Assembly (NCBI GenBank): GCA_947172415.1
Contig: OX359190.1
Location: forward strand, 9,982,001 to 10,046,000
Direction: 5' to 3'
Length of the DNA: 64,000 nt
Source: Chondrosia reniformis
Taxonomy: Eukaryota > Porifera > Demospongiae > Chondrillida > Chondrillidae
Position 1 is the first letter of the stretch, and every line of letters begins with the position of its first letter. This document shows, piece by piece, positions 42,401 to 64,000 of the stretch. Under the pieces are notes generated by a model, which worked only from the letters and a program-made list of their open reading frames with translations, did no database searches and was not told where the DNA came from. The position numbers and the translations under genes are program-made.

Positions 42401-45400
42401 CTCAGTTCACAGATTTGTATAGTAATGCCTGTCTTCCGATTCCCTCACTCCTCCCTCTCTCTTCCCTATCTCTCTCTCTCTCTTCTCTATCTCCCTCTTT
42501 CCTCCCTATCTCCCTCTCTCTTCCCTATCTCCCTCTCTCTTCCCTATCTCCCTCTCTCTTCCCTATCTCCCTCTCTCTTCCCTATCTCCCTCTCTCTTCC
42601 TATCTCCTTCTCTCTTCCCTATCTCCCTCTCTCTTCCCTATCTCCCTCACTCTTCCCTATCTCCCTCTCTCTTCCCTATCTCCCTCACTCTCCCTCCCTC
42701 CACACTCACCATTCATGGGTCATGAGGTCAAACTCTCCGTACAGTTGACCCATAGTGATGGATTTGGGGTTGAGTACATAAGTGTGGACTGGTTCAAACA
42801 AAGCTCCCCCGGGAGTGGTCTTGCCCTTCAGGTGGGTCAGGGCAGCCTTTAATACCTCATAGCACTACATATAAGGATAGTATACTATACTGAAGAATCA
42901 GGATAACTTTGGATTTTCTTGTATACTAGTATACCTTGGTCTTGGCAGACATTGTAGGCCCAACCAACATGAGACCATGTCGGACCACAGTAGTCTCGTA
43001 CAGTTGGATGCACTTCTTCACAAAACCGGGAGTGTCTTCTAAGCCAAACTCTTTGGTGCGCTCTCTAATGGATACCTCAAGGTCTCCGTAATCCACTGGT
43101 ACCTCCCTGTAGTTAGGAGGGAGACAGTTAACAGTACCGTGTGACAGCTATTCCAACATCAAATACAGTAGGAGGTATACAATGTATCAGAATGCATCAC
43201 GACCAGAGAGTGTTCAGATAACTGCTTCCTACCATACACACTAAATATACGTACGTAGGTATTCCTTTACAGCACGGCAATCAGTGAGGTAGGTGGTTGG
43301 CATGGCAACCCATCCGAGTGTGTAACTCACTGTATCTTTGGGAAGAGATCAGACACTATTCCACTGAAGAGCTTGAGGTCATCCTGAAGGAACTTTGGCA
43401 CATTGACATCCCTGACTGCCCTCAGCACAATCAGCTCCTCACTCATGTCCGGGTTCTCCCTCTTCAAGTTACCAGCGGCTGAGATGACAGTCTTGACTGC
43501 TCTCATTCCTACAACATCCACAGTATACTACCTTCTCAAAAGGTTTACAAGAATATACAAGAGTATACAAGAATATACAAAAATATAGTGTATAAATATT
43601 TATTGCTAATGTACCCAGGATAGGATATATAATAATGTATGAAAAATCTAATACACCATTTTCCTACATGCTATGCCTATTCTGTAAAAGAGCCTATAGG
43701 GGAACTATGTACATTTAGATCCAGGCTTGAGGATTAATTACATGCACATATGTATGTAGGTATGAATGTAGTACAATGACCTACGAACCAAAGTCGTAAT
43801 GGTCTTGTGAGCTGAGTTGCTCTGAGGATAACTTGAAGGTGGTAGTGATCTTCTTGGCCAACACTTTAGCACTGGAGAAACCAAACGAGTACAAACTGAT
43901 TTCAGCAATCATTGCATAATCCGGTACCATCATTGCGACAGGTCGGAAGAGAGCCTTCAAGGGACAGGAAACAGAAGTAGTAAGTAATACAGTTTTAATA
44001 CTGTATACATATCATAATTATTAATTGTATAGGACCATACAAATAGGAACACATAATACGTACATACAATTGACAAGTAAATTATGGATACGTACGTAGC
44101 AACATATGGAGTGCTTACATGTGCAAATAAGTATACACCAAATATGGTACCAAGAGAGTAGTGCATTATTTAGTCAGTTACCTTTAGGTTGTCCGGCAGT
44201 TCTGTTCTCCCTGCATATCCCGGGTTCATAGTGACAAACACTGCACAGGATCTCTTCAATGACAGATCCACTCCTTCAAACATAAACCTGTCCAGCTATG
44301 TACATACATATGTATATAAATAAATCATACACTCCACTCATTACAGATGACATTGTGATTGGTACATAATAGGGTCTTCTTACGCAAGCTTGCTGTGCCT
44401 GCTGTATTGTTGTGATCTGCTGGGCCACTACAGAGAGTACTTCAATATCTATCCGGTTGAACTCATCAAAGCAGGCCCAGGCACCAGAGCTGGCCAGCCC
44501 CTTGAAGAACTTGCCCATTGCCATGAAATCCAGCTGATCAGAGCAGTTGAACACTACACACTGGATAGCCATTGCCTTGGCAAGATCCTAACAGTGAATC
44601 AATGGATCATGGTAATGGTTGTGGTTATCTTATCTGCTAGCTGTGGGTGAGGTGTACCTTGGTGGTCTCAGTCTTGCCAGTCCCGGCTGGTCCAGCGGGA
44701 GCTCCTCCGAACTTTAAGTGCAGGGCTCCGGTCAGAGTGAGGTAGCACCTGTCTGTCAGTGGAGTGATCACCAACCTACCCGTGTTGCCTAGATACTCGT
44801 AGCCATACACAAACTCTGCATTCACTGCCCTTATAAGGAGGTCCTCATGCCAGTAGTACCTACATATATACAGTATATCACTTGTGTGGAGATCTCTTAC
44901 AAATCAGTTCGAGTTTAAAATGGTAACTCTTAAATTTAATAATTAAATTTTTGAGGTTCATGCTATGTATACGTACCTGAGTTGGCTGATCCATTCAAAG
45001 TCATTGATGTCCTTGACTCCCTCTTCCACCATCTTGAAGACCACATCTCTGGCGTGCACCTCAATGACAATGAGGGCCGACATCATCATCCTCTCAATCC
45101 TCTTTAGCTTCCCTCTCACCAAACTGACCAGGTCGCTCAGCTGCACACAACAGACATGACATTTAACAGATTGAAAGACCCCATCAAACTCTCTTTCCTA
45201 ATATTTTAATAATCTGGTGGCTTCTAAAAGGCTTTTGGTACACAAAGAAACTCGTTTGTCCTGTCCTATTACAGGAACACCTGACAAATGTACTTAAGCT
45301 AGCTCACTAAACATCTAATTATCAACAGGACACAAGACACAATGTTATATTTCAGCAGTGAGGTAGATGTCTGGTCATGTTACCTGATCTACTAGTCTCT

Positions 45401-48400
45401 TGGTAAGTCCCTCCAGGTCACCATGAGCGATGGACTCTGTGACCTCTGTGGTCCAGTTGACCTGACAGCCCGCTATCACTATCTGACCCGGCCAGCTCAG
45501 CACCCAATCAGTACGGGGCACCTGGGGGAGGGGCGGGAGAGGAGAGGGGAGGGGAGGGTGTAATGATGAGGAGAGGGGAGGGTGTAATGATGAGGAGAGG
45601 GGAGGGTGTAATGATAAGGAGAGGGGAGGGGAGGGTGTAATGATGAGGAGAGGGGAGGGTGTAATGATGAGGAGAGGGGAGGGTGTAATGATAAGGAGAG
45701 GGGAGGGTGTAATGATAAGGAGAGGGGAGGGTGTAATGATGAGGAGAGGGGAGGGTGTAATGATGAGGAGAGTGGAGGGTGTAATGATAAGGAGAGGGGA
45801 GGGTGTAATGATGAGGGGAGGGAGGGGAGGTGTAATGATGTATATAGGGAAAGTTATGAAAGAAACTTATACAATAGATACGTAGGGATATGACTACAGA
45901 GCTAATTATATGTATAGATATACAGAACTGTTTACATGTATACAATGTTGGTCGATGGAATACAACAGAACTACCTACACACAAATATCTGCTGTCAAAC
46001 CTGTGGATACTGTTCCAGTGACTGTCCAATGATGCTCTTCAAGCTCCCTCTCATGACCCTCTCCACCTCACACAGCCAGTCCTCCACGTTGCCCTTTGGG
46101 TAGAGCTGCTCACTGAACGGCACCTCCTCACCTTCTCCCGAAAACATCTTTGTGATGCAGAGGTCCTCTTCAAATTGCAGCTATAGAAGTGAAAAGGATG
46201 TATAAAGATCCTGGTACCATAACATAAAAAGGTGTTTTCACATGACCACTTCTATCATACATACGTATAGAGCTTTTCACTAGCAACCCTTAAACCAATC
46301 AAAAAGCAGCATATTACTGTACATGTTGTAATAATGACATGATTAGTGAAGCTGTGGATTGTATATAATGTATGTAGTTCCTATTACATATATATAATAT
46401 AACCCAGCTTACTCTGGATATGTTTTCAAAGCACTTTCTGAGATGTGGTTGCACAGCAGTTGGGTCTTTAGTTTGAGAGAGTATCTCCAATAGCTCATCA
46501 TCGGAGAGGAAGTAGAAACGAGGAAAGGCACTTCTCTTTGTCTCCAAATAGTCACTCAATCCCTTTTGAACCTAAAGAGAGAGAGTGAGAGATAGTGATA
46601 CAGGACAAGACAAGAGAGAAAGTGATACAGGACAAGACGAGAGAGAGATAGTGATACAGGACAAGACGAGAGAGAGAGATAGTGATACAGGACAAGACAA
46701 GAGAGATAGTGATACAGGACAAGACAAGAGAGAGATAGTGATACAGGACAAGACAAGAGAGAGAGAGAGTGATACAGGACAAGACGAGAGAGAAAGTGAT
46801 ACAGGACAAGACGAGAGAGAAAGTGATACAGGACAAGACGAGAGAGAAAGTGATACAGGACAAGACAAGAGAGAGATAGTGATACAGGACAAGACGAGAG
46901 AGATAGTGATACAGGACAAGACGAGAGAGAAAGTGATACAGGACAAGACAAGAGAGAGATAGTGATACAGGACAAGACGAGAGAGATAGTGATACAGGAC
47001 AAGATGAGAGAGATAGTGATACAGGACAAAATAAGAGAGAGAGTGATACAGGACAAAATAAGAGAGAAAGTGATACAGGACAAGACAAGAGAGTTAGTGA
47101 TACAGGACAAGACAAGAGAGAAAGTGATACAGGACAAGACAAGAGAGATAGTGATACAGGACAAGACAAGAGAAAGTGATACAGGACAAGACAAGAGAGA
47201 TAGTGATACAGGACAAGACAAGAGAAAGTGATACAGGACAAGACAAGAGAGATAGTGATACAGGACAAGACAAGAGAGAGATAGTGATACAGGACAAGAC
47301 AAGAGAGAAAGTGATACAGGACAAGACGAGAGAGAAAGTGATACAGGACAAGACAAGAGAGATAGTGATACAGGACAAGACGAGAGAGATAGTGATACAG
47401 GACAAGATGAGAGAGATAGTGATACAGGACAAGACGAGAGAGATAGGTGACAGTCTCTCCAGATGGATCGAGCTGTTCAAATGTAGGTACCTGATCTAGT
47501 AGCTTGTTGCATTCCTTTAGATTGTCCAAGAGCTTCTGATCTGCACAGAGCTGGATTGTCTTTGGATTCTGTTTGGCAGTGTTCATTACTTTACGCCAAA
47601 TCCTCTCCATTGTCTGATACCTACACATACACCATACAGCATGACACACACGAGGATATGTATGCATTTTATTATATACTACAGTACTTTTTGGGCTGGT
47701 TGTCCAGATCGGACATTGCAATCGGTAATCATAAAAGGTTATTACCACATGCATAGTCACATTATTCTAGTGGGAAATATTGCAATATGAAATATTACAA
47801 GTGGTAGTTGCAAGTTACCGATTGCAACATCCGGTCTGGACAACCAACCCAAAAAGTACTGTATATCATTTTATATAATCTCACAGATATAGTGTATAAG
47901 ATTGTTTTTCTTATTACATCATAATAAACTACTGTAACACTATTCTATTTAGGCTGACTTTGTGAGTGTCAGCAACACTCAAGAAAATTTTAGAACATTT
48001 CAGCACGTAGGTCTTCATTGCAGCTATAGTGATAAGGAGGTTACAAAATCAAAAATTATAGTATTGCACAAGCTTTCCTTAGGATAAAAAGTGATTCATT
48101 TTGGCTGTTATAATTACTGAGTGTACGACTTTCTTCCAACTGCTTAACAGTATAGATAAGGTCCTGTTGCGTAAGTCTGTGAATAGACTCATATACAGCA
48201 CTCATTTCCGGTCTACAACTGTAGTCATCTTTGAGACACCAGATGATGAGAGACTCCAGAGGATGGTTGTCAGGTAGCTTCTGGAGATCTCCCTTCCTGC
48301 GAGTCACCTCTGGTACAGTACCAATTCCAACGACATTCACTGAAGGAAAGCACTGTGTAGCTACCTCCAACATGAGTACACCAACTGAGAACACGTCGAC

Positions 48401-51400
48401 CTTCAAATTGAAGCGAGACCCTTCTTCCTTTAGAGCTTCTGGAGGCATAAACAGCATCGCTCCAGGCGCTGTAGTAGTCATGTATTCTCCAACAGCGTTG
48501 AGGAGTTTCGATTGGCCGAGATCAGTAATCTTTGCTGTTCCATCCTCAGTTATCAAGATATTTTTATCGTTCCCGTCACGATGCGCCACCTTCCTTTCGT
48601 GAAGAAACTTAAAACCAGATGCAATGTCCAAGCAAATGTCCAATTGCCTCTCTAAACTAAGTTGACCTTTATTTCGCTCTACATGTTCCCTCAAATTCTC
48701 TTTCAGCAGCTCAAGAACTAACATCGGCTCGCCCTTTCTGTTCTCAAAAGCGCCGTACGACTTGATGATGTTCGGATGCTCGTCGAGTTCGGACAGAATT
48801 TTGCATTCTCTCTTAAAGTCTTCCAACGGCTTCCCTTGAGCTATAGATTTATGGATCGTTTTAACAGCGACAGGGCAGCCGTTAAATGTTCCTTCGCAAA
48901 CAACTCCATACGCTCCACGTCCAATCTCACGATCAGTCAGTTTAAGATGACTGGGCTGTTTAGAAAGACGAGCAACTTCTACATAAGCTGCCATCGCGTA
49001 CGTAGAAATGGGACCTCATACGGTACAAATACTATTTGTTCTATGAATAAATGCAGTGTTTGACATTTATGAATCGCGAACATATTAGCCGAGAAGTAAC
49101 ATTGTTCGCATTTTTCGTTCTCATACGACTTTAGATCGGTCTGTATAATTATGGCACTCTCTGCATGCATCCTGCAGTACCTCTTTCCTTCAACAGGAAG
49201 CTGTCTGTTAATGTCATCGGAACTAAAGATTGGCTCCAAATACAACCATGACCTCTGACAAACTGACCTACGTACATTAAAAGTATCACATTTAATGTAC
49301 ATACTTATATTAGCTATCCAATAGCCATCACATTAAGTGACAGTACTTTGGATAAGAGTTCAAAAATTATCACAATGCAATGCAAGAGTGATGTACACAT
49401 GTAACATGAGGCATTAAAAAGTTGGAATGAGGCAGCTTCTCGTATGATAATTAGCATGTTCCACTGACCACTCCTCTATGACATCCTGGGTGACCCTGAG
49501 CTTGTTCTCCCAGGTTGTGATCCGTCCCTCAAAGGGCTTCTTGTAGGGACTGAAGGACATGGCCTGAGTCATCACAATGTGATCGTCCAGCTGTTGTGAC
49601 ATCTCCTCGCCTGGTGGAGCAGTATACAAGAGTATGCTAGATGAGTTTACTAGAATTTACTAGTGGCTAACCCGTTCTCATGATGAACGTGCCAGTTTCT
49701 TTGTAAGCCAGGATCTCCAGCTCCACTGGTTCCCATTCCGACTCCATCTTGTCCAATGCCTATCAAATAAACACTTTCTCATATTTGTACACACTACTCA
49801 ATACTAGCTACATCTATGTATGTGCGCATATACATAGATGTTAGGATAATGTACCTGTTCAATGCCATATTCCTTTCCAGCTATCTCTCCCACTTTAGCA
49901 ATCTCCTCTGAATGATTCTGCAAACCCATTTCCAAACATTTGGCAAAAGTTAAGTTCTGCTTGGGCTGAATTGTCATTCCAAGTTGTTCAGACAACTGAA
50001 ATGGAAGTTGGAATAGCCCCATAGCAAATGGCAAGAAAAAAAGAGATATTCAACTGTACAAAGATACTATAAGAGCTGATAAAAGAGGCATGGCTAGTGC
50101 AGCAGCAGATGAAGGTGTGGCAGAAGAATAGGGTGTGACTGATAGTAAAAGGGGTGTGGCTACACACCTGCTGCCAGTGTCTGTTTCTCATTCCCGGGTT
50201 CCTCAGTCCTTGTATGAGAGGAATGTAGGGCTTGAAGGCATCAATCTGGTCCTTGACCTCTTGAGAGGCCAGCTTCAGTGGCTCAATGTCTCTGAAGTGC
50301 TTGACACACTTGTGCATCGTCTTAAAGGAACCATTAACATTAGTACTGCAGCAAATAAGTACGTATATATGTATGTACATACATAATATACATGTACTAC
50401 ATACGTATCTACGTACATTCCTATTTATGTACATACGTACCTACATATCTACATATATTGATGCAACTGAAATCAGTCCCAACATGTACTATACTTACGC
50501 GAGTATTTCTGGGTCAATGTTAACAAGAGAGTCGTTCATCCAGCTCTCGTGCCACCTCATCCAATCTGCTGCTGTGTTCCAGAGGTTCTTGTACGGCTCA
50601 AAATCTCTGGTCAGTTTGCCTACCTTGTCATACTGGGTCACTGGCAGTCCAAACAACCTCTCTCGCTGATTGTACTTCTGAGCCAAGGTCTGACACTCCT
50701 TCAGGTCCTTGGTCACCCTGCGGACATCATTACGTATCTCTGGAGCCTTTGTGAGGTCCGTGTGGCCACTAAACCCAGCCACAATCATCTATGGGAATTA
50801 GGAGGGAACATCTCCATATATGGTCATTAGGGAGCATCTTATATGGTCATTAGAGAGTATCTCCTTATATGGTCATTAGGGAGTATCTCCTTATATGGTC
50901 ATTAGGGAGTATCTCCTTATATGGTCTAGGTGTCTCCAAACCTGAAGTGTGTCCAACTTTTCCTCCAATTGTGACTGATCATTGAGAAGGTTCTTCTGAA
51001 ACCTCTCCTCGTCCTGATCCATCTGAGCAGAAGCATTCTCAATGTGCTCATTCAGTCTGTGAGGCCAACTGAGAGTCGTCCACCTTCACACACACATGTA
51101 CGTATATGTACGTACATGTGTGAGTATGTATGTACACACGAAATGATATTTACATAAGTATTTCACACATTATGTATATGACATACGTACGTACATAGGT
51201 AGGTGGCCCTGGGTTTAGCTAAACTTGTTGCAAAGTAAGGTTGAGCATTCAACTTTAAAATCAGTAACTAGGTACATCTCAGTGTACAGTACCTGGCTTC
51301 AAAGTCCTCATTGGAGAGAGGATAGCAGTAGTCCTCCACCATGTCATAGTCACTCATAGCTCTCTGGATACGCTCCTGTGAACTGTGGACTGTCTCAGGA

Positions 51401-54400
51401 ATGGTCTTCATGTAGTCCCTCTGCTCAGTCAGGTCCTACACACATGTACGTACGTATGCATGTACATGTTTATGTACGTACGTATGTAGAAATGTGCAAC
51501 AGGTAAGGGAATTCCCCTGAAGGTCCCCCCAAGCCACATATTTTGATGTTACGTACATACGTATGTGACAAGTATTATGTGTATTATGATATGTACATAC
51601 TTCAATTGCATTTGGTCTTTCAAACAGTCTCTTTGAGATCTTGTTAAACTGTTCACAAATGTCATCTGTCTCCTTCTTCAAGTTCTGCACCATAAAGTCC
51701 AACAGAGCATTGGCCAGCTCCTACACACACACACAGGTAGACGGACCAATGAGACTCTCCAACCTGTTCAGGTGGCACGACACACACAACTACTGATGAG
51801 GCTCACCTTGCACTTCTTTCCCAGCTGCGTCCTCAGACTGTCCACCATTACGTAGAAAGGACCGATCACAATGCTCTGCGGGAAGGAGCTCTCAATGTCC
51901 GACTTCTCCTTTAGAAACCTGTCAATCTCAGCCTTCACCTGCTGAGTTGTTTTCTCCTCCGAGGCAAAGGATCTGCAATGCAATAGAAAGCAACTCACAT
52001 TTATACTTTTAATAGTGTTTCTACTTATATTGGTTGCATAACTCTACGCATAATAAATGTTTTTGTGGCATTTAATAACAAATAGCTATTTTGTATTTTT
52101 CCATGTTCTACTCAACTCCACTCTTTTCATCACTAGTCTTAGATGGACATTCCTCACTTATTGTATAAAAACTCTTACATTAAACATTTATATATGCATG
52201 TACACATAACATGTGTATAATTTGTATACTCACTGCAGGTACTCAGCCACTGTCATGTTGGCCAGTTCAATGTACTGTACAAACTGTCTGGAGTACGCTA
52301 GCAAGGGCACCAGAGCCTCCGATATGTACATGACTATCTTGTCCCTGAGGCTGCAGACACTCGGCTCCTTTGACCCGACAGACTCCAACAGCTCTGGAAC
52401 TTTGGGCCAAAACAACTTGTCCACTATCATCTACGTACAGTACAAGTGAACAGGAAATGTAAAGGAGACAGTCGCCTGACAGGATTATATACATACGTAA
52501 AAATGTGCACAATTGTCATTACACTGACTCCATGATATTAAAATACATAAATTGAAAGTTTGGGAGCATGGTAGCTCGTTTTACACTCTACCTAGTCCAT
52601 CCAATATTCATCTCTTGTGTCCATCTTTTCTATACTCACCCTCTCCCACCTCCTTATACTCACCCTCTCCCACCTCCTATACTCACCCTCTCCCGCCTCC
52701 CTATACTCACCCTCTCCTGCCTCCCTATACTCACCCTCTCCCACCTCCCTATACTCACCCTCTCCCGCCTCCCTATACTCACCCTCTCCCACCTCCCTAT
52801 ACTCACCCTCTCCCGCCTCCCTATACTCACCCTCTCCCACCTCCCTATACTCACCCTCTCCCACCTCCCTATACTCACCCTCTCCCACCTCCCTATACTC
52901 ACCCTCTCCCACCTCCCTATACTCACCCTCTCCCACCTCCCTATACTCACCCTCTCCCACCTCCCTATACTCACCCTCTCCCACCTCCCTATACTCACCC
53001 TCTCCCACCTCCCTATACTCACCCTCCCCCACCTCCCTATACTCACCCTCTCCCACCTCCCTATACTCACCCTCTCCCACCTCCCTATACTCACCCTCTC
53101 CCACCTCCCTATACTCACCCTCTCCAGTCTGGGGACCTTTTGAGTGACTTGAATGCCCTTATCAAACACCCTGACCAACATCACTTGGAACGTGAGGAGG
53201 TCAGCGTTGTAGTGTACTCCTTCTCCATCAATCAGCAGTTCTAGAGAGAAGAGGGGTCCGGCCTTTGGTCTAAAGGAGGAACAAGATGAGGTACATTCTC
53301 TGAAGTGAGAGCTCTCTGGAGCTGAGCAGCAGCAGGACAGTCAGATCATCCTTACTTGAATGGGCTGTGTACAATTGTACCTTGCCAGGTGTAGTCATCT
53401 GGAACATTGTGACACTCCACACAAGCGTCCTCCACCATCAGATAGAATGCCTTCAAACTGTTCTCAATCAGTGTCCTCATGGCATCCTACGTACAGAGAG
53501 ACATGAACGATGGAGCTAACATGACATTGGAGCAGAATAAATGATATATAACCTTAAATATGGCTGACAACTAAGTGACACTTGTATTAGGACCACATAT
53601 GTACTATTTTAACTGCCTACATATTGTTTCCTCAGAACCAACTACATTTGGAAAGACAGCTAATCAAACTACTATACCAGAGGAAATCCTTACATGTAAT
53701 ATAGTTAAAATGTTTCATTTAAATTTATCTAAATATCCATGTACACTTGTATTAGGACCACATATGTACACACGTATGTTGTAGTTGTGTTCCACTCACC
53801 TGCATGGCGTATCTGACCAGTTCCATGAGTCTCCTCAACTTGGAGCAGAGGTAGACGTCCCAGCTGTTCTCTGCTATACTGAACCATCCCTTGTTCACGT
53901 CAATGAGACTGGACCAGATGAGGTGCTTCAGCTGAGGGATCCACTTTCCCTCCAGATAGGCCTGAACCTTCAGTTATAGGGAACAGCAGTATGCAGTATG
54001 GAACAGCTTATATACTTACCTATGCATACAGTAGTACTGACCTTAGCCCTTATATCTATGACATACATACATAGGTGTACAGATCTATCTATTACGTATG
54101 TCTACATACCTGATTGGAGGCTTGTAGTTGTGATAACTCAAAATCTTCAATTTTGAGAGGTTTCCCAACTTTAGTGTGAAAGAGACTCAGTTCAGTCACT
54201 TCACTGCACTCTGACCTCACGTGCACCACAACCTGAAGCACACAGAATATACGTACATATCATAACTACCTTTAGCTTAAATACGTATATTCCATTTGCA
54301 CATGTACACACATAAATACGTACATATCAATATGTGACATGTTTAAACACTTGTTAATGTACATAGTACGTATATAGTTAGGTGGGTAGTGTCATATGTA

Positions 54401-57400
54401 CATATATTGTTATAAATAAGACAAATGAAATAAATACCCACGTATATACAACATCAGTACCTTAATGGCTTCCTCGCTTGTGAAAAGAGTCAGAAACTGA
54501 AACTTGTCCCTAACATTTTGGAATGGGAATGGGGGCACATCGGAACACATTCCAGTCAGAGGAACAGGCTCGGGTTGCTTAACTGGAACTGAAACATATG
54601 AAAAGGTTTTGGAATCAGAATTAACAGTTTTATCAAATATCATTCTATTTTGTGTTCTCTTGTATTCCAACTGAATCTCCTTCGCCAACCTCTCAGAAAC
54701 TTTGGAAACACTACATATATGAATAAAGCATCTCAATACATCTCAATATATGAATAGGCTGTGTGTATGTACCTTTCTGTCTTGAGGATGGGAAGTGACT
54801 TTGCCAAGTCTTGTATCCTCTGCAACTCTTCAAAGTCCATCTCTCCAGCACCTTCCACAGGCATACAGTCAACATACAAGTTGTACCTTCACACACAAAA
54901 GGCCAGACCACATGTAGCAGGCACATCTCTACCAACACCTGCGGGATTGCGAAAGTGTGTTGTACTGACTGACCTGAGATGAGATTCGACCTCCTTCCTC
55001 AACTGGTAGGCATCCGACACTCGCTGGGCAAACACTGCTGGATCCTCAGCCGCAAACGCGAGGTGGATCCGAGGTACCCAGTACTGGAGGTCGTCTTCTG
55101 TGTCGTAGGCAGTGAAGAACCTTACCTTCTTCTTCTTCTTCTGTGTCCTCTCCTCTCCTTCCTTGCTCTCTGGAGGTTGAGGAGATCCAGTGTCACTACT
55201 GACTGGACCAGCAGACATCTTTTGTTCACTGTCAGACCCTTAAACACACACAGATAGCGATCACATGACATATTTGTATGATGTGATAGGCAAAATAACC
55301 ACAGTTATTTGGAATATGGTTTTATAGATAGTTTATAATGAGAACTTGTTGTGTCACTGTAATATGGATAATATTCCCAAAGATCAATTGTTCAAAACTT
55401 GCTGCTCACTTCTGATGCTCTGCTAAATGATATCAGAATCTAGTTACGTAGAGTATGTACCTGACGGTGAGGTGGATCTGCTTGAGGTCTGCTCCTCTTG
55501 ATTGCTGTCTCCCCTCTCCCTCTCGCTGGAGAGGCTGTGATGTGAGTCTCCCTACAGGACACAGCAGACACATGACAGGAGGAGAGATAGGTCACTAAAA
55601 TGGCTGATCAAGTACCGCTTCAATCTCCTTGGGGGAACTCCCTCTCTCTTCCCTTGGAGGAGAGGCTGGCTCCTCCTTGCTGTCCTCTTTAGCCTGCTCA
55701 GCTTTCCTCTCTGCTTTCAGCTCAACTAGTCTAGTAGGAACTGGGAGGAGAACAAGATGAGAGGAGAACAAGATGGGAGGAGGAGAACAAGGTGGGGGGA
55801 GAACAAGATGGGAGGAGAACAAGATGGGAGGAGAACAAGATGGGAGGAGAACAAGATGGGAGGAGAACAAGATGGGAGGAGAACAAGATGGGAGGAGAAC
55901 AAGATGGCAGTACCAACACAATCAGATGAGATGCACAACTATTTTCATACTAAACTTTTTAAACATTCAAACAGTTGGAAATAGATAATTATACATATAC
56001 GTAGTTGGATTATGCGTAGCTACTATCCAAAAGTAATTTAACTCTTTCAAATCTAAAAAGATAGTGAATCTTGAATGAGTTCTATAAGATATTGTGAGTG
56101 ATCAGCAAGAGCTACTGTATCTCTGCTCACCGACTATTCTCTGCACGAGGTACCTCTTGGTCTGAGGGCTGTACTCTAGCACTCCTACATCCGTCCACTC
56201 GTGACACAACACCTTTGGAGCATGGGGTGGGGGGTCGCTGTCACTAGACACCTTGTAGCGACCTTTATAGAGCAACAGAGTACAGCACAGGGAATAGCAC
56301 ATCACAGTATGGATCAGCATATGGATGTATTATATACATTTTTCTACCTACATACATACATACATACATACCTACGTACGTACGTACATAGGTATGTGTG
56401 CATATGAAAATGTAGGTTATGTACTGTACTGTATGTACAAATATATGTATGTAGCTATCTGATCAAAAGTGTGGTGTATGCATGTCAACTGACGTCCAGC
56501 TCTTGATGTTCTGAAGGACGGTGGAGGAGCGCCGGCTGGAGGGAGAGGAGACTTTGTGTCTCCTGCTGCAGCCTCTCCCACAAGTGAAGCAAGAGAAGGG
56601 AGAAGTGCTTTGGCTGGAACAAGCTTCCTTATCTCCTTCCCTCCCTCCTCCTCGTAGCCAAGGGCTATCCACTCCTCTGGAAGATGCTGGTCATACTCAC
56701 TGTCATCAAATATCTCAAGTGGCAGAAATGGGGGGAATTCTAGAGCTGGACCTGCGTAATCATATCATACGTACATACAGACTTATGACTTAGTGCAAGA
56801 CTGAATACACCACCATCACTATTATAATTGCACACTTACGAAGTGTCTTGCTAGATCCAGAGTCAACAGATTTACTAAGAGATCCCTTCTTCTTTGGAAT
56901 AATGTGCTGTGTGTTCACAGAATGAGAAGAGAGAATGTCTTCCAAATCCTTCTGAGCAAAGTCTCTCTTTCGACTGAACACAGAGTGAGCAGAAGAGATA
57001 AGATATGAATCACTCTTTACCACTCCTCGTCTATCAATGCTCACCGTTCTATCTCCAGTAACCTGGGAGTGACTCCCGTCTGTGTTTGGAAGGAGACTTG
57101 GACTTTGGGGTCCCACGACCTCTTTGAAAAGTCCTTTACACACAAAATAAGAGTTTTTAAAAACAAGTACGTATATTATACAAATACAATACCTGCATGT
57201 ATGCATGCGTTACCTCAGAAGTCAACAGTTGAGTCGTCGGTCCATGGAGTTGAGCTTGAAGAATGTCGATAAAGTTTTCTGGAGTTCTAAACTGAGTCAC
57301 TGAAGAGATAATACAAGCAATGACGTCACGCTAAACATCGTGGACTTCAAGTAACAACTCTTACCAGGCGGAACGTGCGCTGGCTTCTTAGTCTTCAGAA

Positions 57401-57645
57401 CCGTGTTCTGTACCACATCTGGTCCTTCCAGCGGATCCTTGATGTGGCAGGGAACATGGTAGGAGTGCGATTGGACGTGTATACACATGTTTACAACTCA
57501 CCAAGATGCTCTCTTTAGCGCCGGGGTTCGCTATTTCTGAATAAAACCCTCTTTGACCAACAGATAGTCTGTTTTGGGGTTTCCCTCTCGACTTAAGGAC
57601 CTCGCGAAGTCGATAATCTTTCCTAGTTCCGGGTCGTGAAGCCAT
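27471..57645 (-). CDS. DNAH1: Axonemal dynein heavy chain 1 (inner-arm dynein motor), complete many-exon gene
   Basis: About 30 kb of minus-strand exons spell a full DNAH1-type heavy chain, the ATP-driven microtubule motor of the inner dynein arms in cilia and flagella. Diagnostic stretches in order are [11 protein letters not shown] (N-terminus), [57 protein letters not shown] (AAA1), GPTMSAKTK (AAA2), [15 protein letters not shown] (AAA3), [17 protein letters not shown] (AAA4), the microtubule-binding domain ([16 protein letters not shown]) and the C-terminal [10 protein letters not shown] stop. These match vertebrate DNAH1 as I remember it over nearly every exon. The start is ATG 57645 (MASRPGTRK); an in-frame upstream ATG at 57693 is possible. 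The last exon is 27592-27471. Introns are short but rich in minisatellites, and one contains a complete kinase gene. Not every exon boundary was fixed. Confidence 0.92.
28720..29340. repeat. 89-bp tandem repeat (7 units) carrying a DNAH1 exon end and its splice donor
   Basis: Seven near-identical 89-bp units start about 28758, 28847, 28936, 29025, 29114, 29203 and 29292. Each unit contains the last roughly 58 bp of the exon ending [11 protein letters not shown], the GTGTGC donor and the start of the intron. Copies A and B at 6.0 and 12.55 kb have one unit only, so the expansion came after the duplication. Confidence 0.95.
30060..30286. repeat. GGGAGA purine microsatellite in a DNAH1 intron
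   Basis: About 225 bp of GGGAGA with GGGGAGA variants. GGG runs spaced by AGA fit a G-quadruplex pattern on the plus (non-template) strand's complement of the transcript. Confidence 0.95.
31180..34910 (-). other. DNAH1: DNAH1 exon block: AAA5 and AAA6
   Basis: AAA5 exons include [20 protein letters not shown] and [11 protein letters not shown] (34.3-34.5 kb) and [20 protein letters not shown] (33.6-33.7 kb). AAA6 exons include [19 protein letters not shown] and [20 protein letters not shown] (32.75-33.09 kb), then exons at 32.09-32.2, 31.97-32.05, 31.75-31.84, 31.5-31.66 and 31.2-31.48 kb. Confidence 0.8.
32235..32725. repeat. 28-bp minisatellite, about 17 units, DNAH1 intron
   Basis: The unit contains GCCTGGCCTATACAGGTGG followed by CCATAGAAT, with single-base variants. 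It lies in the intron after the exon ending [10 protein letters not shown]. Confidence 0.95.
35428..35575. repeat. 15- to 26-bp minisatellite, DNAH1 intron
   Basis: Repeats of ATGGTTTGATGGGAG and ATGGCTTGATGGGAG, about nine units, directly after the donor of the exon ending KAVAPKR. Confidence 0.9.
36177..36320. repeat. 21- to 22-bp minisatellite, DNAH1 intron
   Basis: Units of GTGGGGCAGAGGTGAGATGA, about six copies, just upstream (in gene orientation) of the acceptor at about 36170. Confidence 0.9.
37360..37472. repeat. 28-bp tandem repeat (4 units) of a DNAH1 exon end with its donor
   Basis: Each unit carries the exon end encoding HMVICM and the following GTACATGT donor. The unit next to the exon body is the real one and three more follow in the intron. 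Because 28 is not a multiple of three, distal donors would shift the frame. Confidence 0.85.
37960..38055. repeat. 26-bp minisatellite, 4 units, DNAH1 intron
   Basis: Four near-perfect units with the core CCCCTAATTACTGAGTCTA. Confidence 0.95.
39200..40790 (-). other. DNAH1: DNAH1 exon block: AAA3 (regulatory ATPase)
   Basis: Walker A is [15 protein letters not shown] (about 40515-40560) and Walker B is [10 protein letters not shown] (about 40075-40105). Also present are [19 protein letters not shown] and [16 protein letters not shown]. All key residues are intact. Confidence 0.9.
40870..43110 (-). other. DNAH1: DNAH1 exon block: AAA2 with altered Walker A
   Basis: The P-loop at about 42945-42975 reads GPTMSAKT where vertebrate DNAH1, from memory, has GPTGSGKS, so the glycine before the lysine is alanine. 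Flanking sequence is well conserved (HGLMLVGPT before it, [20 protein letters not shown] after). The sensor region [18 protein letters not shown] is at 42.2 kb. AAA2 is generally a structural nucleotide site. Confidence 0.85.
42455..42700. repeat. Pyrimidine-rich minisatellite, DNAH1 intron
   Basis: Units of about 18-19 bp (TATCTCCCTCTCTCTTCCC), roughly 13 copies, starting just after the donor of the exon ending LMTHEW. Confidence 0.9.
43327..44870 (-). other. DNAH1: DNAH1 exon block: AAA1 (main ATPase site)
   Basis: The Walker A motif [10 protein letters not shown] lies near 44660-44695 and the Walker B motif [10 protein letters not shown] near 44460-44490. Both are intact, so the principal ATP-hydrolysis site is expected to work. 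The upstream sequence [20 protein letters not shown] is the classic dynein entry into AAA1. The block ends at [16 protein letters not shown] (43.33 kb). Confidence 0.9.
45535..45840. repeat. 24-bp minisatellite, about 12 units, DNAH1 intron
   Basis: Units with the core GAGGAGAGGGGAGGGTGTAA. In gene orientation this is a long pyrimidine tract ending at the acceptor of the exon [12 protein letters not shown]. Confidence 0.95.
46575..47450. repeat. Long 21- to 28-bp minisatellite, about 34 units, DNAH1 intron
   Basis: Units contain GATACAGGACAAGACAAGAG with variable GAGAGATAGT spacers, filling almost the whole intron between exons at 47.6 and 46.56 kb. Long open frames on both strands are an artefact of the repeat. 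Confidence 0.95.
47682..47861. mobile_element. 180-bp Tc1/mariner-type MITE
   Basis: Near-perfect terminal inverted repeats of about 45 bp start CAGTACTTTTTGGG and end CCCAAAAAGTACTG, flanked by TA on both sides (47680-47681 and 47862-47863). A TA duplication and CAGT ends are typical of Tc1/mariner derivatives. It lies in a DNAH1 intron beside the nested kinase gene and has no coding capacity. Confidence 0.85.
48056..48994 (-). CDS. Intronless protein kinase with C-terminal partial ubiquitin, nested in a DNAH1 intron
   Basis: This is a 312-residue single-exon frame starting [10 protein letters not shown]. Kinase motifs are [28 protein letters not shown] in place of DFG (ITDLGQSK) and MPPEAL in place of APE. 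The catalytic His-Arg-Asp, the metal-binding Asn and the DxG Asp are present, so activity is possible. The last roughly 35 residues ([20 protein letters not shown]...) match the C-terminal half of ubiquitin from Gln-Gln-x-Leu-Ile onward. They are especially close to the units at 58.1-59.3 kb, also at the DNA level. The tail has no Gly-Gly. It sits in the DNAH1 intron between exons at about 49.19 and 47.62 kb, same strand. Lack of introns suggests retroposition or capture of a fused single exon. Confidence 0.85.
   Translation of the reverse strand: MAAYVEVARLSKQPSHLKLTDREIGRGAYGVVCEGTFNGCPVAVKTIHKSIAQGKPLEDFKRECKILSELDEHPNIIKSYGAFENRKGEPMLVLELLKENLREHVERNKGQLSLERQLDICLDIASGFKFLHERKVAHRDGNDKNILITEDGTAKITDLGQSKLLNAVGEYMTTTAPGAMLFMPPEALKEEGSRFNLKVDVFSVGVLMLEVATQCFPSVNVVGIGTVPEVTRRKGDLQKLPDNHPLESLIIWCLKDDYSCRPEMSAVYESIHRLTQQDLIYTVKQLEESRTLSNYNSQNESLFILRKACAIL
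52628..53127. repeat. 24-bp minisatellite repeating a 5' splice site (21 donor sites), DNAH1
   Basis: On the minus strand the exon ends RLER and is followed at once by GTGAGTATAGGGAGGTGGGA units of 24 bp. Each unit ends GAGAGG before the next GTGAGTAT, so every unit carries the same strong donor. The frame stays open through the whole array, each unit adding VSIGRWER. Counting the plus-strand core ACTCACC gives 21 sites. Confidence 0.95.
53130..57645 (-). other. DNAH1: DNAH1 exon block: N-terminal tail
   Basis: Exons here encode the tail that assembles the arm and binds light and intermediate chains. The first exon is 57645-57502. An exon at about 57299-57212 reads [20 protein letters not shown]. 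Further exons lie near 56.15-56.27 kb ([20 protein letters not shown]), 54.98-55.2 kb (lysine-rich [20 protein letters not shown]), 54.45-54.72 kb ([20 protein letters not shown]) and 53.13-53.27 kb ([17 protein letters not shown]). The segment near 55.6-55.73 kb is low-complexity and charged ([12 protein letters not shown]). Confidence 0.8.
55745..55912. repeat. 16-bp minisatellite, about 10 units, DNAH1 intron
   Basis: Units of GGAGAACAAGATGGGA. In gene orientation it forms a pyrimidine-rich stretch ending at the acceptor before [12 protein letters not shown]. Confidence 0.95.
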
Positions 57646-57680
57646 TTCATATTTTTCGGTCGGCCATTTTGGTAACCATG

Positions 57681-58090
57681 ACGACCTATACATGAAACTT
57701 CTTCGATCTATTACGTATGTATTTCAGAAATTCGAATTCTCATGCAGGCTTTGCATGTGTAATTCCAGCATGTGTAATTTTGGTCCCCATGACGACCTAT
57801 ACATGAAACTTCTTCGATCTATTATGTATGTCAGAAATTCGAATTCTCATGCAGGCTTTGCATGTGTAATTCCAGCATGTGTAATTTTGGTCCCCATGAC
57901 GACCTATACATGAAACTTCTTCGATCTATTATGTATGTCAGAAATTCGAATTCTCATGCAGGCTTTGCATGTGTAATTCCAGCATGTGTAATTTTGGTCC
58001 CCATGACGACCTATACATGAAACTTCTTCGATCTATTATGTATTTCAAAAATTCGAATTCTCATGCAGGCTTTGCATGTGTAATTCCAGC
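57681..58090. repeat. 107- to 111-bp tandem repeat (about 4 units) in the DNAH1 upstream region
   Basis: Units start about 57681, 57792, 57899 and 58006 and share ACGACCTATACATGAAACTT and a GAATTCGAATT-like palindrome. The first unit overlaps the presumed DNAH1 5' UTR. The array fills the space between DNAH1 and the ubiquitin-like gene. Confidence 0.9.
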
Positions 58091-58140
58091 TACTACTGTT
58101 TCAAATTGAAAGGAATGATTTGGCAAGAGCTTGTGTTGCC

Positions 58141-59268
58141 TCAGAGCTGTAATTGAATAGTTGATTCTGTTTGGATATTGTAATCACTGAGTGTACGACT
58201 ATCTTCCAACTGCCTACCAGCATAGATAAGGTGCTGTTGGTCAGGTGGTATTCCCACTATGTCCTGAATCTTTGTTTTGACACTCTCAATAGTATCACTT
58301 GGTTCCACATCAAGTGGAATGGTCTTACCAGTGAGGGTCTTTACAAATATTTGCATACGTCTCCGTCTAGGTACCAAATGAAGAAGAATTGCCTCTGTTT
58401 GGATGTTGTAATCACTGAGTGTATGACCATCTTTCAACTGCTTACCAGCATAGATAAGGTGCTGTTGGTCAGGTGGCATTCCCACTAAGTCCTGGATCTT
58501 TGTTTTGACACTCTCAATAGTATCACTTGGCTCCACATCAAGTGGAATGGTCTTACCAGTGAGGGTCTTTACAAATATTTGCATACGTCTCCGTCTAAGT
58601 ACCAAGTGAAGAAGAGTTGCCTCTGTTTGGATGTTGTAATCACTGAGTGTACAACCATCTTTCAACTGCTTACCAGCATAGATAAGGTGCTGTTGGTCAG
58701 GTGGTATTCCCACTATGTCCTGGATCTTTGTTTTGACACTCTCAATAGTATCACTTGGTTCCACATCAAGTGGAATGGTCTTACCAGTGAGGGTCTTTAC
58801 AAATATTTGCATACGTCTCCGTCTAGGTACCAAGTGAAGAAGAGTTGCCTCTGTTTGGATGTTGTAATTACTGAGTGTACGACCATCTTTCAACTGCTTA
58901 CCAGCATAGATAAGGTGCTGTTGGTCAGGTGGTATTCCCACTATGTCCTGGATCTTTGTTTTGACACTCTCAATAGTATCACTTGGTTCCACATCAAGTG
59001 GAATGGTCTTACCAGTGAGGGTCTTTACAAATATTTGCATACGTCTCCGTCTAGGTACCAAGTGAAGAAGAATTGCCTCTGTTTGGATGTTGTAATCACT
59101 GAGTGTACGACCATCTTCCAACTGCTTACCAGCAAAGATAAGGTGCTGTTGGTCAGGTGGTATTCCCACTATGTCCTGGATCTTTGTTTTGACACTCTCA
59201 ATAGTATCACTTGGTTCCACATCAAGTGGAATGGTCTTATCAGTGAGGGTCTTTACATAAATCTGCAT
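58141..59268 (-). CDS. Degenerate polyubiquitin-like protein: five ubiquitin units without Gly-Gly
   Basis: This is one open exon of 375 residues, four units of 76 plus a last unit of 71. Each unit follows ubiquitin closely ([20 protein letters not shown] ... PPDQQHLI). Residues equal to K6, K11, K27, K29 and K48 are kept; K33 is Ile or Leu and K63 is Thr. Leu8, Ile44 and Val70 of the hydrophobic patch remain. Every internal unit ends HLVPRRRR or HLVLRRRR in place of LRLRGG, and the last ends STIQLQL, so no unit has the Gly-Gly needed for cleavage or conjugation. The units are about 228 bp each and very alike, indicating recent expansion or gene conversion. The frame is open upstream to an acceptor-like site at 59289-59290, which may join it to the exons at 59.9-61.5 kb. 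Confidence 0.9.
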
Positions 59269-59544
59269 TGAGATATGTAATAAGTCTTCTGCTTGAGTAT
59301 GATATGTGGATTTGGTTACTGCATATTCATTCCTAACAGGGATCCGTGTTGACTAATTATGCATGCATGGAGTATAAACTAAAAAAAACATTCAGAGCAT
59401 AGAAAAGGACACGATGGCTGATCCTAAAGCTTCGATGTATTATATAATCAATTGATGGACAAACATGCATGGTATAGATTCCTTACCAGGTATGCAGTAT
59501 TTTTTTGAAGGGATTGTTCAGTGTTCTGAACTGCAGCAGCTAGC

Positions 59545-61479
59545 TCACATTTTCCTAAGGCATAACATTATAAAACATCTTATTAGAACTAGTTGCTCTA
59601 AATATAGCTTATGAGAATCTCCACTACTTTTAGAACCAAACTTGGTTACTTGTATATATTGTACAGCCGGAATGGTTGTCAGAAAGAATATTTGATAAAT
59701 ATTATTATTATAGAAAATCCTTATAAGTTGCTTAACTGAGACACCTAGGATATTGAGCTGATAGCAGCTCTGACTGTGTGTGTAAACATCTATATAAGTA
59801 GGTTTATCTGTTATATACTGTATAATGCCCTTCAGCCCATCGGGCAAGTAAACATTAGTATTATAGTATTGCTGCATCTTACTTGCATCAAACACTAGGA
59901 CATCAGGAAGGGATTCAAAAGGTTCTCGTGGTTTATAGCTTTGAGAATTGAGACCTTTATTCCCAAAAGGTGGAAGCTACAAGAATTATATGTATAGTGA
60001 ACACAAAACTATATACATGTACAGTCATAAACATCTCACCAAGTCCACTGTAGCTTTGAAAACCTTTGGCAGAATCTGAAAGTAAGATAATGTGTATATA
60101 CCTTGAGATTTGTATTTAATTAGTAGATTAGGAACTTACGTAAGATCTATGTAATACATACTTTAGTGCTCCTGAAGAAATCTCCCCCAGACAGCAGACA
60201 GTCTTTTATGACAAACATGGCTGTGCTCCAATTGATCTCAACCTGAATAAATCCTGGGATAACAATCTTTTGGACTCTCAGCTCTAGCAAAACCCAAGAC
60301 ACAGCTCTTTGACAGTGTGCCTTCATCAGAGATTTTACATATTGCTTTGGAATGTGAAAGGTGATGATAGAACTGCCTGGTCTAACTGGTCCACCTATTT
60401 CAATCTGGTCCCTGGGAATGCCTACTCCCTCTGCTAGTACACCAAACCACAGCTCGTGACAGGAACTATACTTCAGCTGGTAAATACTATCTTTAAGGGT
60501 AATATTTACCTCTACCTGATCTTGCTTCAATGGCTTCTGGGCTCCCTGGAATGCCTCAATATTCTCTAACCTATTCTTGATCTGTAGATACTGAAAGAGG
60601 TGGCCCTGATAATGATCAAGGATCTTCATAGCTTCCTCATAACAGCTCAGGTCACATGTTTGGACAGCACGAAGAACGAGCATGAGCAGCAAGAGATCGT
60701 TCCACTTATCAGGTATATCGAGATACTTTAGAACTTCCTCGGTAGATTTAGCAGCTTCTACGTGTACTCTCTGCTTTCCTTCTACCATCTTATGCTTTCG
60801 ATCGATAATGAATACAACTTGCTTCTTGATTATTTCTGCGTGCTTCGGGAGCAATCCAAGGACGAGAGTGTATGCTGACGAGTAGAGCAAATGCAAAACT
60901 TCTTCAGCATTCGTACAGCCACGACTCATTAAGGAACACTCCAAAATTCTCCGACACGAATCAGCTACAATATGGTATGTGTCTCCGACATCAGATCTGC
61001 TTGCGTTGAATTTTGGCCTCTTCCTTTGAATGGCAGTAGTTGGTGGCGATTCTATAGTTTGTAATGGCTGTATGTATGGCTATATAGATTTAACATTAAT
61101 ATAGCTTACCATCCAAGAACTGGTCGATCATTGAAGCCAATGCTAGCTGGTTATCATGACTCTTGCATTCCTTCAAAGCTTTGGAAAGGATTCTAAGCTT
61201 TCTAACTGAAGGGTCTTTGACAAGCTTAGTATGTAAATGGGCATTCGCTTCCTCACTATTCGACTTAGATTGAATGGTTTCCAAATCAGTTACATCAATA
61301 GCATTTTCTCTTAAAAGTGTAGATGCCCATGTCCTACAGTCATTGAATTTAAGAAATCGCTTGTTAAACTCTTCCTCTTTCAGGAACTTCAGGACTTTCT
61401 CTATCTCCTCCATGTTATGATATGCCTCATATATTATGCGTCGTTTGAACAACAAAACCAGCACTTCCTGTTGTAACAT
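59545..61479 (-). CDS. Uncharacterised protein, possibly the N-terminal part of the ubiquitin-repeat gene
   Basis: Proposed exons are 61479-61110, 60964-60162, 60075-60040 and 59976 onward. Junctions are GT-AG and phases fit. Ending at the stop at 59545 gives 546 residues. Alternatively a GTAAGA donor after 59883 joins in frame to 59288 and the five ubiquitin units, giving 816. The first roughly 120 residues are helical and charged and end in a pattern (KLRILSKALKECKSHDNQLA) reminiscent of a death-fold domain, which is speculative. A later segment (PVRPGSSIITFHIP) resembles a strand-rich module I associate with sponge death-domain proteins. I recognise no catalytic motif. The start is uncertain: TTACAACAG just after ATG 61479 could be an acceptor. 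Confidence 0.6.
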
Positions 61480-62113
61480 GAATAATTTACATGCTACATC
61501 TACTTTAGAGTAAAGACCTATAGGGAACTAAATCTAGTACATGAGAGCTTTTGATGAGGATACAAGAATTTTCTCCTTCTCCATGATGGCCATGCAATGC
61601 AACATGCAAATATAGTATTTATATATATACCTTAGTATATTGTAACTTGTAGCCTACTGTATAATTCAGTAGAGTTTGTGTTTGTTTGTTTGTTTGTTTG
61701 TTTGTTACCGCATTACTCCGTCGTTTCTGGACGAAATGCAGTCTAACTCTCACAGATTATGGAGTATCACTTGGGAAGTGACCTGAAGTATTTCATTTAC
61801 GAAAATTCGCCGCTGCGGAGAAGAGCGTCCAGTCTCAAATTTATGTACGGGAGAGACGTCATTTTTTATCATTTTATCGTAGCGGAGCTACATGTATATA
61901 TGGTACATTGTAATTAAAATCTTCAGTTAATAGGGCATCATAACCTGGATAGTCTATGTGCTATGACACAAACAAAAACAAACCCTTGTACCATCTGCGA
62001 TTTGAAGCCTATATGAGGTAATTATGGCAACATTGTATTTTAACCAGATATACAACTGACTTTTCTTTGTACAAAATCTACTTCAACTTTACATAACACA
62101 CATATGAGTGAGC
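61480..62113. other. Intergenic region with TTTG microsatellite and possible promoter
   Basis: No coding region is supported. A TTTG run lies at about 61675-61706. The stretch at 61710-61880 is less AT-rich than its surroundings (CGCCGCTGCGGAGAAG), and could be a promoter or first exon of the minus-strand gene to its left. Confidence 0.4.
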
Positions 62114-64000
62114 TTAGCTATGTGACACAGAATGTGTAATTCTCAAATGATCTTCAGTTTGGTGTGGTAAATTAACATTAAATAAAACAGTTTTATCTTG
62201 GAGTAGCGGATATGTCTCTTGTAGCCTCTTGATCCAGGACTGAAGGACCTTCAGATCTGCTGACTGACAGTGACACACAGCAAGAAGACCTACACACAAA
62301 CAAGTCAGAAAGAATAAGCTGATAACCTAAAAGATTGTTCTAGTTGTCATGGATACATGTTAATACAGCTAGATATACAAAAGCCATTAAACACTGTTTA
62401 ATTAGTCCAATTATACATTCCATAAATGATACATTAAATGCATTAATGCATAAATAAAGTGTTATAATAATAATTATGTAGAAAACCATATTATTTAAAC
62501 CTATCTATCTATGAAATATAAATAATAATAATGAAGTATAAAAATATATACAAGATATTACTTTAAATGGAGCTACATATAGCAGTCTATACAGTTCTAC
62601 TGACTGACTCACCGTGGGTAACTTCAGCCAGTGGGAAGGTGCTGAGGGTAAAGTAGTGTTGTTGAGTTCCCTTCATCCATATTCGGTGAGGTCCTTCCAC
62701 ATGCAGCACTTCACCAGGCAGAGTGATATCCTGGCGACTAGACACTGAAGGAGTGTCACATGTCAACTGAGAGAGGCTTGGGAACACAGCTCCCATCACA
62801 GGCACACCATCAATCTGGAGTAACAGAACAGGCACCAGTGACAGAATAGAAACCCAAAATATAGTCACTGCCAATAGTGCTAAATATAGTAGCAATATGA
62901 TATCATGGAATCACATACCATGACATAATACATTCATAAATTAATATGTATGTGCACACATTGAAGTAACTAAAGGTTATTTCTAGGGATGCTAGAATGT
63001 AACCATTTTTGATATTAATTTTATTATTAAATGAGTTGTAAAGATTAGTTATTGAGTTTATGATTTTGGGAATACTAGAGTGTATCTTGGGAATTGTACT
63101 TGTGGTCAAAGGGAAATACCCCCTGATATCCCATGCAAATCTATTAACAGTTTTCATTCAAGATAAAAAAACTACATCCAAACTTAATATCTTGCCTCTG
63201 AGAACTGCTTTCTTGGGTAAGATATGGAAGCAACTTATTTGGGACTAGATATATCTCTTTGACAACAAGATTACATATATAGCATGCAATTTAAGGAATG
63301 GATACAAATGTGAGGAAAGTCCCCAACAGACACATATACATGCTCTTACTTCTACATGATCAACAGTTGCTTTACCAGCACATATCCTCTCTAATAGGAG
63401 AGCGCCCAATTCAATTGGGTCAGAGGGGAGTTCCCCCTTAACACTGTAGGGGTTTGCCCCTTCAAACCTGTCAAACCAGTAACCTATCCGAACACACTTT
63501 TCTACTGGAGGACTGGTCCTACCAAATATCTCTATAAGAATAGTGTATGTTAGATTGTCCGGTCTAATTCCATTCTCCTCCATTTTGGTTAAAATTAGCA
63601 ATGCTAGGTCAATCTGAGGATGGGGCTTTGGCCAAAAGGCATCAAATATGTTTCTTGGAATGAACCTTCCTTTTGGAAATAAGTCTAGTACTCTGTTGTA
63701 TGTGAGAAGATCTTTTTGAAGCTCAAAGTCGGCCATTTTAGAGACAGCCAGTTTTATAAACTTCATGTGGCCTCTCAAGTATTTGTCTCTCGATCTAAAC
63801 TCAACCAGTGCCTTTCCAAATTGCTCTTGTCTCTTTAAACCTTCAATATTCTTTACTTGCTCCAAGAATTTCTCCATGGGTACTCTCTCTAGAATCAAAT
63901 TATCCTTTTTGCTTATGCTAGAGTTCTGTCTTATGGAGCACTTCAATCCACTAGTTCGTATCCGCCATCCTACGCTCAAGATTGCCGTTCTTCCATACCA
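62114..64000 (-). CDS. ECSIT: ECSIT-like protein (Toll pathway intermediate / complex I assembly), 5' end outside window
   Basis: Exons are at least 64000-63350, then 62814-62613 and 62289-62114, with GT-AG junctions and matching phases. The central segment is strongly ECSIT-like: RDKYLRGHMKFIKLAVSKM, FPKGRFIPRNIFDAFWPKP, then LALLILTKMEENGIRPDN, a PPR-like helical pair. The second exon (GVPVMGAVFPSLSQLTCD, EGPHRIWMKGTQQHYFTLST) and the third (LLAVCHCQSADLKVLQSWI) match the C-terminal domain. ECSIT acts in Toll/BMP signalling and, in mitochondria, in complex I assembly. The visible N-terminus is arginine-rich and acid-poor (WRIRTSGLKCSIRQNSS), in keeping with a mitochondrial presequence. No ATG is visible in frame, so the start lies beyond 64000. 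Confidence 0.88.

Follow-up and report, generated by a model that had tools for sequence, protein, structure and literature searches.

Ubiquitin is among the most conserved eukaryotic proteins, and its Gly-Gly pair is required both for maturation by deubiquitinases and for conjugation. Polyubiquitin genes such as UBB and UBC consist of head-to-tail 76-codon units with no introns between them, and the units are kept alike. Here we describe a polyubiquitin-like array in the sponge Chondrosia reniformis, contained in a window of 64,000 nucleotides (contig OX359190.1, positions 9,982,001 to 10,046,000; C2:9982001-10046000 in the searches below). The array shares its layout with UBB, UBC and the host's own polyubiquitin gene on C12, but in the true gene every joint carries Gly-Gly and the units are identical in protein sequence, and neither holds for the array. 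Because ubiquitin is so highly conserved, a long open array without any Gly-Gly is a clean natural case of ubiquitin after the loss of conjugation. If silent, it illustrates how a polyubiquitin locus decays and is homogenised; were it expressed, it would be a natural counterpart of laboratory-built uncleavable linear chains and would bear on ubiquitin signalling in an early-branching animal.

The tandem ubiquitin-like domains of OASL have no conjugatable Gly-Gly and act by binding, and OASL, like UBL5/Hub1, is an established functional gene whose sequence is distant from that of ubiquitin. The array differs from both in being a close derivative of ubiquitin with a putative function only. The likeness to UBL5/Hub1 is that of a ubiquitin fold without a conjugatable Gly-Gly that acts by binding (PMC8431670). 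The human UBB pseudogene UBBP4 resembles the array as a spare polyubiquitin copy with changed units; its A1 product carries L73R, also present in array units 1–4 (alignment by eye), its A3 product is without Gly-Gly, and both occur only as unattached monomers in human cells (PMC7066184). UBBP4 differs in that some of its units are conjugatable and it is transcribed and detected as protein (PMC7066184), whereas the array has no Gly-Gly unit and has RRRR joints. In the divergent polyubiquitin of Plasmodium ovale an inserted codon close to the unit's 3′ end has likewise spread to repeats one to four of five and left the last one untouched (PMC10457151); the array differs in that its Gly-Gly is lost. 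Among the literature matches listed, no title describes an arginine-jointed polyubiquitin.

The array and its units are as follows.

58141..59268, minus strand: ubiquitin-like open reading frame (ORF) with Pfam match, 375 codons, five units, stop included
59041..59268, minus strand: unit 1, 76 amino acids, PRRRR end; F45 and E51 retained; private changes F4Y and G10D
58813..59040, minus strand: unit 2, 76 amino acids, PRRRR end
58585..58812, minus strand: unit 3, 76 amino acids, LRRRR end; R54C
58357..58584, minus strand: unit 4, 76 amino acids, PRRRR end; I36M and R54H
58141..58356, minus strand: unit 5, 71 amino acids; K48R, G53S, H68Q and V70Q; stop at codon 72; neither RRRR nor Gly-Gly

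Five stretches of the array protein match the Pfam ubiquitin family PF00240, with a whole-protein E value of 1.7e-129 that excludes a chance likeness, and the tandem repeat table gives a period of 228 bp across 58166–59268. Relative to host ubiquitin (the T28 form) all five units share T14P, E16D, N25S, K33I (L in unit 4), E34V, R42H and K63T; F45Y is common to units 2–5 and E51K to units 2–4. L8 and I44 are retained in all five units, and HLV in units 1–4, shifted by one residue. The first-pass annotation of this DNA had described five tandem ubiquitin units at exactly these coordinates, with PRRRR or LRRRR in place of the Gly-Gly joints, K63 and K33 lost and K48 kept. All of this agrees with what we find, on the minus strand and with one amendment: K48 is retained in four of the five units and is R in unit 5.

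The array contains no Gly-Gly, either at its joints or at its terminus. At all four joints RRRR runs directly into the M that opens the next unit, as PRRRR-M after units 1, 2 and 4 and as LRRRR-M after unit 3, and unit 5 ends at codon 72. Aligned by eye with the host genes, the tails of units 1–4 have gained one Leu codon in the last strand and lost one Gly codon, and carry the substitutions L73R, Gly to Arg and, in three of the four units, Leu to Pro. The gained Leu codon compensates for the lost Gly codon, so that the 76-codon period is maintained in these units. The first-pass annotation mentions neither this exchange nor the missing tail of unit 5. The layout of a polyubiquitin precursor, head-to-tail units without spacers, is thus present in units 1–4, with unit 5 short, and the Gly-Gly expected at each joint and in the last unit is missing throughout. 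Structure prediction by AlphaFold was uncertain: the mean predicted local distance difference test (pLDDT) score was 55.8 for the pentamer, from one sequence only, and 66.3 for unit 2, from only five alignment rows, the model of unit 2 showing a helix in place of the last strand.

It had been suggested that a basic-residue protease cuts the product at its arginine runs. Such cutting would release single units with RRRR tails that act as free ubiquitin-like monomers. RRRR-M is present at every joint and fits a furin-type motif. However, the ORF opens directly with MQIY, so that on general knowledge the product would be cytosolic and beyond the reach of furin-type enzymes, and the unit-to-unit dN/dS (the ratio of nonsynonymous to synonymous change) of about 1 reported below also speaks against such a product. 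We regard this suggestion as unsupported and the process as highly improbable.

We searched the species' own assembly (117,379,552 bases in 15 contigs). The published account of this assembly, odChoReni1, gives 117.37 Mb in 14 chromosomes plus a mitochondrial genome, with C2 at 10.29 Mb (PMC12181767). A Pfam ubiquitin search returned 33 matches. The polyubiquitin gene at C12:657419-658330 has four units with Gly-Gly at every joint, followed by Q and a stop. Two ubiquitin fusion genes are interrupted and have their Gly-Gly intact: one on C14 continues with GKKRKRKNYTTPKK, by which we take it to be RPS27A, and one on C1 continues with VIEP, presumably RPL40. With these normal genes intact elsewhere in the genome, the supply of ubiquitin does not depend on the array. 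No second RRRR-tailed array was seen among the matches listed in protein and DNA searches of the assembly, in which the best candidates were scored. ORFs clustered at C7:6409558-6422966 have an N-terminal ubiquitin-like domain and, after it, Cys-rich parts that resemble RING-in-between-RING ligases, with tails such as LRLPGG.

Misassembly is possible in tandem arrays. An assembly or base-calling artefact is extremely improbable here: the assembly is built from HiFi reads with a consensus quality value (QV) of 69.8, which makes sequence error unlikely (PMC12181767), the units differ from one another, and the locus appears a single time among the genome matches.

Compared with the normal ubiquitin genes, the array shows dS values that range from about 1.6 to 3.7 or are too large to compute, together with dN of about 0.08–0.14; the same counting yields dN of up to 0.03 between normal genes with an identical protein, an artefact of multi-step codons. 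By this distance the array copy is old. The dN/dS check proposed with the first-pass annotation was run between units only, and neutrality was not rejected. Codon likelihood on the array units alone gives a maximum-likelihood dN/dS of 0.99; fixed values of 0.5, 1 and 2 are tolerated (twice the log-likelihood difference, 2dlnL, 1.96, 0.00 and 1.77, respectively), and values of 0.3 (2dlnL 6.18) and 3 (2dlnL 4.13) are rejected. For the four units of the normal polyubiquitin gene dN/dS is 0 and a value of 1 is rejected (2dlnL 15.46), so that the near-invariant protein under strong purifying selection that characterises a polyubiquitin precursor is found in the true gene and not in the array. A branch codon model over codons 1–66, using a hand-drawn tree, assigns dN/dS values of 0.004, 0.04 and 0.86 to the normal branches, the stem of the array and the array units, respectively; for the units a ratio fixed at 1 costs a 2dlnL of 0.09 and is not rejected.

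The signals around the array are poor for a gene. The start context, TCAATGC, is weak, and there are ten ATGs nearer than 300 bp upstream, with an eleventh at −300; five of the ten share the ubiquitin frame, and all ten meet a stop after 1 to 37 codons, before the array ATG. No AATAAA or ATTAAA poly(A) signal occurs within 1 kb downstream. In a control scan the normal genes on C12, C14 and C1 have 3, 3 and 4 upstream ATGs and an A or G three bases before the ATG, and the C12 gene has, in addition, a TATA-like element at −96 and, 84 bases past its stop, a poly(A) signal. We use this comparison of predicted signals as supporting evidence only. A bacterial promoter and terminator scan was set aside, giving nothing above shuffled sequence and being unsuited to an animal; no RNA family reached gathering scores in 56000–62000.

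Since the units differ at a dN/dS close to 1 and the gene signals are poor, a decaying paralogue is likelier than a functional uncleavable chain. In our preferred reading, which we hold to be probable, the array is a polyubiquitin paralogue in decay that unequal crossing-over has homogenised and that has so far kept an open frame. A surplus tandem copy of ubiquitin would have been released from constraint, and point changes, together with one codon gained and another lost in compensation, would have removed the Gly-Gly of its tail; the altered tail would then have spread through units 1–4 by unequal crossing-over or gene conversion. The last unit would have been spared the altered tail and have gained a stop at codon 72, and the units would now be drifting without detectable constraint on the protein. 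The condition of unit 5, without K48, H68, V70 and a tail, is consistent with this course, as are the intact normal ubiquitin genes and a scrap of the same lineage 10 kb from the array, described below. The pattern of units 1–4 altered and unit 5 spared parallels that of P. ovale polyubiquitin (PMC10457151). The locus would make little or no protein, and any protein made would be an inert linear ubiquitin pentamer that is uncleavable and unattachable. Given the established role of Gly-Gly, its loss rules out both maturation by deubiquitinases and conjugation, and the earlier statement that the locus is not a ubiquitin source therefore holds: its product, if made, would be neither matured nor conjugated.

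The usual marks of a pseudogene are found in part. The array is of ubiquitin origin, its conjugation residues are lost and its change looks neutral (neutrality between units being not rejected rather than proven), but the frame is not broken by stops or frameshifts, the sole stop being the terminal one at codon 72 of unit 5. Several observations weigh against decay. The frame of 375 codons is still open and both tail indels are in-frame; the neutral probability of no internal stop is 0.25–0.35, so that the open frame alone is weak evidence either way. On the stem leading to the array a dN/dS of 1 is rejected (2dlnL about 7.0), although such a low stem value is equally expected from a constrained product and from a long working past followed by decay. 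Finally, 13 positions that we take to form the ubiquitin core receive none of 20 inferred amino-acid changes (P = 0.011–0.015, post hoc), and a wider set of 17 such positions receives one of the 20 (P = 0.018–0.026, post hoc); the changes were inferred by hand over codons 1–66, the probabilities span six neutral mutation models, and the test was chosen after seeing the data.

The first-pass annotation also raised the idea of a permanent linear ubiquitin chain that serves as a decoy or scaffold for ubiquitin-binding proteins. The array would then be a functional gene whose pentameric product, with joints resistant to deubiquitinases and a tail that cannot be activated, stays unattached and engages I44-patch receptors. 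The open five-unit frame, the core free of inferred changes, the in-frame nature of both tail indels and the retention of L8, I44 and, in units 1–4, the shifted HLV all fit such a protein. A dN/dS of 0.99 between units, the weak start context with its many upstream ATGs, the lack of a poly(A) signal within 1 kb and the H68Q and V70Q changes of unit 5 do not, and we judge a working gene possible but unlikely. In a fuller version a spare gene has turned into a dedicated uncleavable and unattachable chain with tetra-arginine joints that titrates or scaffolds receptors, the high dN/dS reflecting relaxed constraint at a surface where only the fold and a few binding residues are kept; we consider this version doubtful.

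Two features stand out in the surroundings of the array.

57666..58090, no strand assigned: tandem repeat of 107-bp units (3.9 copies), shortly beyond the 3′ end of the array; reported nowhere else in the genome
48092..48169, minus strand: ubiquitin scrap of about 26 residues inside the C-terminal part of the kinase ORF 48059–49015

The scrap is 86% identical in DNA to unit 5 over 78 bases, is in frame with the kinase ORF, and shares F45Y and G53S with unit 5. When the last 75 residues of the window's kinase were compared with those of 11 of its other 127 genomic matches, the window's copy was the only one of the 12 loci with a ubiquitin tail. This minus-strand kinase ORF has 26 relatives (counted by eye) with E below 1e-100 at C14:595356-1137401. 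No A-tract follows the array stop, by eye, in 57401–58140, as might mark a retroposed pseudogene. The flanks, 59269–60146 and 57641–58165, matched only themselves in the genome and were rejected as parts of a transposon. The array was also rejected as the last exon of the upstream gene at 60150–61079, as none of the 33 ubiquitin matches lies near the other 22 genomic matches of that ORF (lists compared by eye).

Pfam matches to dynein heavy chain lie on the minus strand at 41350–41700, 44279–44587 and 44640–44903, and the dynein gene may, in our reading, reach from near 41 kb to 55 or 57 kb, which would place the kinase inside an intron. The array might be transcribed solely as a leader or regulatory segment for this downstream gene, with which it shares its strand; the next minus-strand ORF of at least 70 codons, 57391–57723, is about 0.4 kb from the array, a distance taken up mostly by the 107-bp repeat. 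However, no first dynein exon was found: the closest Pfam match to dynein lies about 13 kb off, and the stretch 54892–55239 has no Pfam match. Such a role is improbable.

The collections searched for relatives of the array were the species' own assembly, GTDB genomes and IMG/VR. Ubiquitin loci were compared for the best 80 of 257 confirmed GTDB loci (L060–L139) and all five confirmed IMG/VR loci (L055–L059), and none of their 95 ubiquitin units has RRR in the 24-residue tail interval. The loci lie on bacterial, archaeal and viral contigs, and the domains that they encode closely resemble eukaryotic ubiquitin; 74 of the 95 units have no GG in the same interval. Of 17 loci picked, 16 were located by motif, and 13 of these have, by eye, a hydrophobic signal-like stretch just before MQIF, many with a C-terminal extension, as if the domain served as a secreted or anchored module. 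Some of the contigs, for example those of L060 and L070, may be eukaryotic contamination.

Elsewhere in the window there is an ECSIT match at 63248–64000 (Pfam). The minus-strand ORFs 60150–61079 and 61099–61527 have no Pfam match at E 0.001; the former has 23 reported genomic matches including itself, three of them with internal stops. Minisatellites are frequent, with 39 tandem-repeat rows, some overlapping; examples besides the 107-bp units at 57666–58090 are 46587–47446 (27-bp units), 52630–53125 (24-bp units) and 32238–32725 (29-bp units).
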